From positions 1 through 48,865 of the forward strand of contig CACBRY010000004.1 of the NCBI GenBank assembly GCA_902541825.1: a DNA stretch of 48,865 bases, read 5' to 3'. Positions 48,212-48,865 of the stretch are shown piece by piece. The notes under the pieces were generated by a model. The model made no database searches. It had not been told where the DNA came from and saw nothing but the letters and a program-made list of their open reading frames with translations. This DNA is from an uncultured Pelagibacteraceae bacterium (lineage in GTDB: Bacteria > Pseudomonadota > Alphaproteobacteria > Pelagibacterales > Pelagibacteraceae). A program made the translations under genes and the position numbers. Each line of letters opens with the position of its first letter. Position 1 is the stretch's first letter.

Positions 48212-48275
48212 ATCCTCACTTTTTTAGTGCTTTAGCTTTATGCAAGGCGCACAATATAGTTCAAATACCTACAGA
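48212..48275 (-). promoter_or_regulatory. SAM-V-like riboswitch overlapping the ribosome site
   Basis: Read on the minus strand: a P1-like pair TGTAGG (48273-48268) with CCTTGCA (48247-48241, one bulge), a loop ATTTGAACTATATTG, then TAAAGCTAAAG and the Shine-Dalgarno AGTGAGG (48220-48214), six bases before the ATG at 48208. ACT of the loop can pair with AGT at the ribosome site, and GTGC (48252-48249) with GCAC (48230-48227), giving H-type pseudoknot options. CACT can instead pair with AGTG locally. The motif order follows the SAM-II/SAM-V core; a translational off-switch is expected. Confidence 0.65.
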
Positions 48276-48286
48276 TTGATTATTAT

Positions 48287-48338: not shown

Positions 48339-48461
48339 CTTTATACTTAATTTTAATTAAAAATCTTTATTAATTATATCTACAAATATTAATTAATTTT
48401 CTATAGATACAACATATAGTATTTTATTCAATTATAAGTAGTAAATAAAATTTTATAAAAA

Positions 48462-48490
48462 TAGACACTACCCTCATTTACGAGTTTAAT
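48462..48490 (+). promoter_or_regulatory. Candidate leaderless promoter of the aldehyde dehydrogenase gene
   Basis: TAGACA (48462-48467, 5 of 6 to TTGACA), a 17-base spacer and TTTAAT (48485-48490) form a good sigma-70 promoter. The predicted start, 6 bases past the -10, is the A of ATG 48496. No Shine-Dalgarno precedes that ATG, consistent with a leaderless mRNA that includes the basic tail. Confidence 0.5.
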
Positions 48491-48495
48491 TGGTT

Positions 48496-48865
48496 ATGGC
48501 TACTAAAAGAAAGAAAAAAGCTAAGCCAAAAACCAATAGAAAAAAAACTAAATTGGTTAAATCTTCTAGAAAAAAAATAAGAACGAAAAAAAAAGTTAGG
48601 ACAAAAAAGTCTGCGACTAAGAAGCGTTCTAAAATATCTAGAAAAAATAATAAGCTTAAATCAATAAAAAAAACAAGAGGAGTAAAAAAAATGAGTGCAG
48701 AAGCTATGAAAGTGTCATCTGTATTAGATACTTCTCATTTGAAAGTAAAATTCCCGTTTAAGGCAAAATACGGGAACTACATTAACGGTAAGTTTGTAGA
48801 GCCAAAATCTGGAAAGTATTTTGATAATACATCTCCAATTTCAAATGAAGTAATCTGTTCAGTTG
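48496..48865 (+). CDS. Aldehyde dehydrogenase with Lys/Arg-rich N-terminal tail (partial)
   Basis: The gene runs off the window end after 123 codons. Residues 1-65 are extremely basic: 27 Lys and 8 Arg, no Asp or Glu, with repeated RKK and TKK steps like a histone H1 tail. Without any stop, the frame continues from Met66 (48691) into KAKYGNYINGKFVEPKSG and FDNTSPISNEVICSV, the N-terminus of an NAD-dependent aldehyde dehydrogenase (ExaC-type). Its Rossmann and catalytic parts lie beyond the window. Two starts are possible: ATG 48496, without Shine-Dalgarno but placed for a leaderless promoter, and ATG 48691, behind a strong AGAGGAG. Both forms may be made. The substrate is unknown. Confidence 0.8.
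   Translation, partial: MATKRKKKAKPKTNRKKTKLVKSSRKKIRTKKKVRTKKSATKKRSKISRKNNKLKSIKKTRGVKKMSAEAMKVSSVLDTSHLKVKFPFKAKYGNYINGKFVEPKSGKYFDNTSPISNEVICSV
48676..48693 (+). promoter_or_regulatory. Internal Shine-Dalgarno and ATG for a tail-less aldehyde dehydrogenase
   Basis: AGAGGAG (48676-48682) lies 8 bases before the in-frame ATG at 48691-48693, an ideal spacing and among the strongest ribosome sites in this window. Initiation here would give a normal dehydrogenase starting MSAEAMKVSS without the basic tail. Confidence 0.7.

Follow-up and report, generated by a model that had tools for sequence, protein, structure and literature searches.

The window, that is, the whole stretch of DNA analysed here (48,865 nucleotides), makes up all of contig C4, one of 41 contigs in an 873-kb genome. 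Its last 370 bases comprise a polybasic tail and 58 codons from the beginning of an aldehyde dehydrogenase core. The open reading frame runs on the forward strand from an ATG at 48496 to 48690 as 65 codons (27 Lys, 8 Arg, no Asp or Glu and no stop), and continues in frame into MSAEAMKVSSVLDTSHLKVKFPFK..., the N-terminus of an aldehyde dehydrogenase. Since the window ends with the contig, the gene is cut after these 58 core codons (48691..48865, + strand). The core starts at a second in-frame ATG, whose position (48691) is that of the start codon in tail-less relatives of the same genus. According to the earlier note, enzymes of this type normally begin near it. The tail itself (48496..48690, +), with the first ATG as the start of a long form, keeps its frame in orthologues with few Lys/Glu differences and no stops.

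Several putative signals surround the two starts. A -35-like box, TAGACA (48462..48467, +), is followed after 17 nt by a -10-like box, TTTAAT (48485..48490, +), which ends 5 nt before the first ATG. The Shine-Dalgarno sequence of the second start, AAGAGGAG (48675..48682, +), lies within the last tail codons and is found in tailed and tail-less loci. Further upstream, on the 5' side of the promoter, a palindrome-like box, ATACAACATATAGTATT (48407..48423, +), is a candidate operator resembling an NrdR box; inspection by eye of 70 listed upstreams of tailed loci showed boxes of the ATACAACATATAGTATT type in many of them. On the other strand, a SAM-V riboswitch (48216-48279, -) precedes a divergent homocysteine S-methyltransferase gene; a second SAM-V riboswitch is present on contig C11 (L002) of the same genome.

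The window holds one good NrdR-like box at 48407-48423 and a second half that is weak by eye. An excerpt of a study of NrdR (PMC12051234) states that regulation needs two boxes with a spacer of 14-17 or 24-27 bp; the weak second half-box, again judged by eye, lies nearer than this. The gene nrdR was present in 3/3 genomes. NrdR regulation is a possible lead: one box fits, and the spacing departs from the published requirement. A box like it was also seen in the own genome (L223, about 1500-1520) before an ORF reading by eye as ribonucleotide reductase, and in L221 and L214, from two other genomes, by ORFs reading by eye as HU and ammonium transporter.

The identity of the enzyme was assessed by profile searches. 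With the truncated window protein, Pfam returned only a sub-threshold PLCC match and no match to a histone, HU or nucleoid-protein family, while 38 residues from residue 86 onwards matched ExaC with 35.5 bits. A full-length relative (P0001) scored 894.3 bits against the ExaC acetaldehyde dehydrogenase profile NF050026, covering profile positions 10-503 of 503. The curated cut-off is 900 bits and the score falls 5.7 bits short of it, so that by this comparison the dehydrogenase is called only ExaC-like and is not filed as a member of NF050026. It does belong to the aldehyde dehydrogenase superfamily (PF00171, 537 bits for the relative P0002, cut-off 23). Residues N238, K261, E335 and C374, which we take to be the catalytic residues of aldehyde dehydrogenases, were invariant in 42 sequences. 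A complete copy, L025, has 579 residues with the tail and 514 without it. At this locus, the only one examined in this respect (the window is cut before that point), a DUF779 gene (PF05610, 144 bits) lies directly downstream, followed by thioesterase-like and GYD-domain genes, the latter on the opposite strand. A DUF779 neighbour is linked to acetaldehyde dehydrogenase genes; acetaldehyde is probably the substrate.

The enzyme thus resembles the ExaC-type NAD-dependent aldehyde dehydrogenases over the entire catalytic core (894 bits with NF050026) and in the adjoining DUF779 gene. Two PDB sequences, 9koi (named ExaC) and 9fm9 (named aldehyde dehydrogenase), gave 758 and 849 bits. The tail sets the SAR11 protein apart from these, in a comparison that covered the core alone.

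Occurrence and make-up of the tail

Orthologues came from the best 80 of 328 relatives (all Pelagibacteraceae or Pelagibacterales), from the own genome together with 150 relatives sampled within the genus, from 197 genomes sampled across the order and from additional fetched regions. This gave 209 loci with a core match. Eight that were cut or lacked a recognisable core start (L001, L004, L022, L023, L080, L092, L117 and L174, L001 and L004 being the window's own gene) were excluded and 33 duplicates were removed, leaving 168 distinct loci. An in-frame, ATG-started tail of at least 30 residues was found in 123 of the 168, while 41 fell in the tail-less class and four were cut at a contig end. 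The fusion of a basic 65-codon run with an aldehyde dehydrogenase, noted earlier in the window, is therefore confirmed by a tail frame kept in 123/168 loci.

The tail is a feature of the own genus, g1, with 123 tailed, 20 tail-less, two frameshifted (counted among the 41) and four cut loci. It was absent from all 19 loci of other genera, namely g3 (3), g7 (2) and g8 (14). Because the best 80 relatives had been chosen by likeness to a tailed query, the genus sample provides a fairer frequency: its 54 genes were 40 tailed, 11 tail-less and three cut, that is, 40/51 scorable genes by open-frame lengths, with the own cut gene uncounted. With 11 of 51 scorable genes lacking it, the tail is dispensable.

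The 123 tails measured 37-76 residues (median 65) with a net charge of +19 to +39. Their composition was 44% Lys, 9% Arg and 0.5% Asp plus Glu, with about 15% hydrophobic residues. The ATG-GCT start was kept in 110/123. When the other frames of the 123 tails were read, frame +1 was open in seven and frame +2 in none. Three loci (L064, L080 and L081) have a frameshift, from either mutation or assembly error, in a run of A within the tail; their core starts and the Shine-Dalgarno sequences before them are intact. Apart from these three, the search for stops and frameshifts in orthologues, proposed in the earlier note, favoured a coding tail.

Selection on the tail was evaluated at its Lys codons, where an A/G difference gives Glu at position 1, Arg at position 2 and a silent change at position 3. 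Among 46 nearest tail pairs, differences numbered 4 at position 1, 46 at position 2 and 47 at position 3. Pairs were formed greedily from nearest neighbours whose tails had the same length, and the changes were unpolarised. For 42 pairs with equal core length, the cores showed 8 K/E and 9 K/R differences, counts that are inflated as some pairs join diverged core alleles. Pooled dN/dS was 0.49 in the tail versus 0.066 in the first 200 core codons. No tail stop was seen versus about 27 from random placement of the substitutions (minimum 11 in 1000 runs), a test weakened by the tails in it having been selected as open. As judged from the codon pattern, the tail is a coding N-terminal extension and not a leader. 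The scarcity of Lys/Glu differences relative to Arg-making and silent ones shows selection on protein charge: the tail is selected for its positive charge, and much less for its exact sequence.

Tail-less genes are scattered over the core tree, which is itself disturbed by recombination. In three pairs of loci (L079 and L008, L053 and L058, L025 and L084) the tails are 96-99.5% identical, and the DNA of the cores is 83-92% identical within the first 150 bases and 71-87% beyond them. This pattern suggests that recombination has exchanged the core, with a breakpoint close to where tail and core join. Because the core has recombined, no clean history of tail gain and loss is drawn on its tree.

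Promoter and the two starts

The earlier note placed transcription start at the first ATG on the basis of TAGACA-N17-TTTAAT. A promoter model (TAGACA, TTTACA or TTGACA combined with TTTAAT, up to two mismatches) matched before the tail in 113/121 tailed loci versus 152/1210 shuffled upstreams (single-base shuffles, kinship uncorrected), and the spacer between the two boxes was 17 nt in 112 of the tailed loci. In the 113 matched loci, the -10 box ends 5 nt (54 loci) or 6 nt (26 loci) before the tail ATG, 80 in total. A second spacing class comprises 13 nt (22 loci) and 15 nt (5 loci), and six loci have other spacings, some from an extra upstream ATG taken as the start. The short distance in 80/113 loci fits the proposed placement and suggests that transcription starts at or within a few nucleotides of the first AUG, so that the mRNA of the long form is probably leaderless or nearly so. 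In the tail-less class the promoter was matched in 30/41 loci. For 29 of these the distance to the core ATG is 23-34 nt, which leaves room for a short leader with a Shine-Dalgarno sequence.

The strong Shine-Dalgarno sequence reported before 48691 is indeed there and is conserved. The core ATG has a site of -4 kcal/mol or lower in 121/123 tailed loci (mean -8.4) and in 41/41 loci of the tail-less class (mean -9.7; two of the 41 are frameshifted tails). At the tail ATG, only 1/123 reached -4 kcal/mol. Synonymous shuffles of the last tail codons gave a mean of -7.2 kcal/mol, and on average 86% of them were at or below -4 kcal/mol (related sequences, kinship uncorrected), by which the Arg-Gly codons already appear to give most of the site. 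The most negative of 200 shuffle set means was -7.4. The observed mean lies below all 200 sets, so the internal site is conserved more strongly than the residues require.

In order to read these values, the complete tailed genome G176 serves as reference. Its first ATGs reached -4 kcal/mol in 131/1002 cases and -8 in 30/1002 (long ORFs, starts unproven), and its internal in-frame ATGs reached -8 in 58/4252. A missing Shine-Dalgarno sequence is therefore normal in this genome and a strong one unusual; being rare at starts, it may also matter little for initiation there.

A dual-initiation gene should have a second start that is in frame, conserved and preceded by a ribosome site, as the dehydrogenase has (121/123), and should yield both proteins. 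Two isoforms from one gene are plausible on these grounds, since a strong internal site is kept where most starts have a weak one or none. The alternative that translation gives the long form alone, with an internal site that is a relic or a by-product of Arg-Gly codons, is a serious one that we nevertheless consider rather unlikely. It would agree with the high share of shuffles that already reach -4 kcal/mol and with the limited use of such sites at G176 starts. It is at odds with a mean below each of the 200 shuffle sets, with the persistence of the site where the residues differ (RGVKK, RRKK, NGGK) and with the same kind of site before the core ATG of tail-less relatives.

Other carriers of polybasic tails

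Searched at E 10 against genomes G176, G194 and G183, the tail alone returned no second copy, and it missed the dehydrogenase tails of G194 and G183 too. As such a search is blind to diverged tails, it was replaced by a charge scan (50-residue windows with a net charge of at least +20). In G176 (1,199,990 bases, ORFs of at least 90 residues), 4/1183 ORFs passed the scan: the ExaC-like dehydrogenase, an acetyl-CoA synthetase (TIGR02188, 1018 bits, cut-off 725), a CarD-like protein (PF02559 and PF21095 matches) and a 399-residue, coiled-coil-like protein without a Pfam or NCBIfam match. Next came a DksA-like protein and one other, both at +18. In 800 kb of genome G183 (778 ORFs), five ORFs passed: the four kinds found in G176, and a FecR-domain protein whose C-terminus is basic. 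The design, noted earlier for the dehydrogenase, is not restricted to it: acetyl-CoA synthetase, CarD-like and coiled-coil-like proteins carry it as well.

The minor carriers can be located as follows. The coiled-coil-like protein, so described by eye, has 379-399 residues, an N-terminal tail of +32/+33 and no Pfam match (L283:18073-19269, -; L383:14209-15345, +), and its G176 and G183 versions share 69% identity in the stretch compared, which lies outside the tail. The CarD-like protein has a Lys-rich N-terminal tail in two genomes (L235:1255-2115, -; L381:893-1786, -), and the DksA-like protein a weaker one (L246:12433-12966, -). In the FecR-domain protein of G183 (L392:13108-14418, +), the basic segment is C-terminal and reaches +36 in 50 residues.

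The acetyl-CoA synthetase with a polybasic tail (G176:C1:39805-41889, read in L229/L230; further loci L288-L353, L398 and L399) was followed across genomes. Its gene was found in 75/80 genomes searched and its 5' end was read in 70. All 61 g1 genomes read have an ATG-started polybasic N-terminal tail, with no second in-frame ATG before the core in 60 and one more in G190; an in-frame GTG or TTG upstream of the core occurs in 18/61. In g8 the tail was present in 5/5, where the start must be GTG, and it was absent from the two g7 and two g2 loci read. Among 30 class-wide loci (the best of 144 genomes with the gene), the synthetase was tailed in the own genome and in G175 of genus g5 (GTG start), and the tail was absent from the other 28. 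The same Lys-codon test on 15 pairs of synthetase tails gave 0 Glu, 22 Arg and 24 silent differences. Overall, the tails of the dehydrogenase and the synthetase range from +14 to +39 in net charge.

Judged by sequence, the enzymes of two successive steps, from acetaldehyde to acetate and from acetate to acetyl-CoA, carry tails of one kind. Strict co-occurrence of the two tails was rejected: a tailed synthetase also occurs where the dehydrogenase lacks a tail or was not found, for example in G012, G105 and G177, where the dehydrogenase was unmatched. Because the synthetase keeps its tail without the dehydrogenase, the two tails are not strictly coupled.

Lys-rich extensions are known from other proteins. 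Some bacterial histone-H1-like and HU proteins have Lys-rich tails, similar to the present ones in their Lys-dominated composition and few acidic residues; the SAR11 tail differs from them in sitting on a metabolic enzyme. In eukaryotic aminoacyl-tRNA synthetases, Lys-rich N-terminal extensions raise the affinity for nucleic acid. These share with the SAR11 dehydrogenase a polybasic extension on an enzyme, but in the synthetases nucleic acid is the substrate, which it is not for the dehydrogenase. Dps combines an enzyme-like core with flexible Lys-bearing N-terminal tails, which an excerpt of PMC9103930 links to DNA binding; high-affinity Dps tails usually have 3-7 Lys there, and nine in a 52-residue case. 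The SAR11 tail differs in having 27 Lys in 65 residues, a dehydrogenase as core and a DNA binding that is only proposed. By analogy, Dps would be the closest working parallel, with no family relation. Among the literature matches listed, seen as titles and starts of abstracts and mostly outside subscription literature, no description of such tails, or of tails on this enzyme, was found. A polybasic tether is a known kind of element; in the literature searched, none was found described on this kind of enzyme.

Proposed tethering, its alternatives and its possible meaning

We propose that the gene product is an aldehyde dehydrogenase of the acetaldehyde type whose N-terminus bears a polybasic, probably disordered tail of about 65 residues. 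Its long form would be read from a leaderless or almost leaderless mRNA, and the internal Shine-Dalgarno start would probably yield some tail-less subunits. The tail would tether the enzyme electrostatically to a polyanion, for which nucleoid DNA or RNA is the likeliest candidate, and the choice of start would set the fraction of dehydrogenase that is tethered. In this manner the tailed dehydrogenase and the tailed acetyl-CoA synthetase may be held at one place in the cell. To this picture of a long form, some short form and a tail that tethers enzymes to a shared polyanion, we give an even chance.

A long tail in which positive charge is under selection and Lys and Arg are interchangeable is what an electrostatic tether would need. 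CarD is a family of RNA-polymerase-binding factors and DksA also acts at RNA polymerase, which makes nucleoid DNA or RNA the partner of first choice. The AlphaFold2 model, predicted from 42 close relatives, is poor (mean pLDDT 56.3, pTM 0.54) and carries little weight for disorder; in it, residues 1-72 have a pLDDT below 50 and residues 1-79 form no helix or strand.

A real polybasic tail might instead be directed to the anionic face of a membrane, to polyphosphate or to the ribosome. Any polyanion would suit a tail in which charge is kept more than sequence, and its hydrophobic residues, about 15% of the total, might form an amphipathic face. The few bearers of tails include the CarD-like protein, plus the DksA-like one with its weaker tail, which argues for nucleic acid, and we regard another target as possible yet unlikely.

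It is improbable that the tail is jobless and arose by a mutational ratchet, in which poly-Lys grows at a tolerant N-terminus of an A-rich genome. Its fast evolution (dN/dS 0.49), its variable length and the scatter of tail-less genes on the recombination-disturbed core tree would be expected of such a process. Against it stand Lys-to-Glu differences about tenfold fewer than Lys-to-Arg ones, an Arg share of 9% and the restriction of such segments to 4/1183 ORFs of G176.

Aldehydes react with lysine to form Schiff bases, and the likely substrate class of the enzyme could be trapped in this way by the tail and handed to the active site. This was judged very unlikely, as Lys-to-Arg differences are as common as silent ones and the acetyl-CoA synthetase, which has no aldehyde substrate, bears the same kind of tail.

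An A-rich non-coding leader with translation from 48691 only, to which the tail-less relatives beginning at the core ATG with a strong Shine-Dalgarno sequence and the frameshifts in three loci might point, is refuted for the group as a whole by the Lys-codon test, in line with the absent stops, the ATG-GCT start in 110/123 and a synthetase tail whose ATG is the sole in-frame one before the core in 60/61 genomes, and it retains hardly any probability.

Returning to the tether, its wider form is that two consecutive enzymes of two-carbon metabolism in SAR11 bacteria, acetaldehyde dehydrogenase and acetyl-CoA synthetase, are anchored through their tails to the nucleoid or to some other polyanion. 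This would be a membrane-free compartment in a minimal cell, the dehydrogenase's bound fraction being tuned by leaderless versus internal start. This is put forward tentatively, at distinctly less than an even chance. An excerpt of PMC3160333 calls SAR11 the most abundant ocean heterotrophs, with very small genomes, and reports that ethanol stimulates ATP production in strain HTCC1062; the latter suggests that a path from ethanol is in use in SAR11. These small genomes nonetheless keep nitrogen-rich tails on two central enzymes, and an assay of the catalytic core by itself would miss a selected part of both proteins. If the proposal is true, tethering tails would be a simple way of organising metabolism without compartments and, more speculatively, might guard DNA from aldehydes or supply acetyl-CoA near the chromosome.
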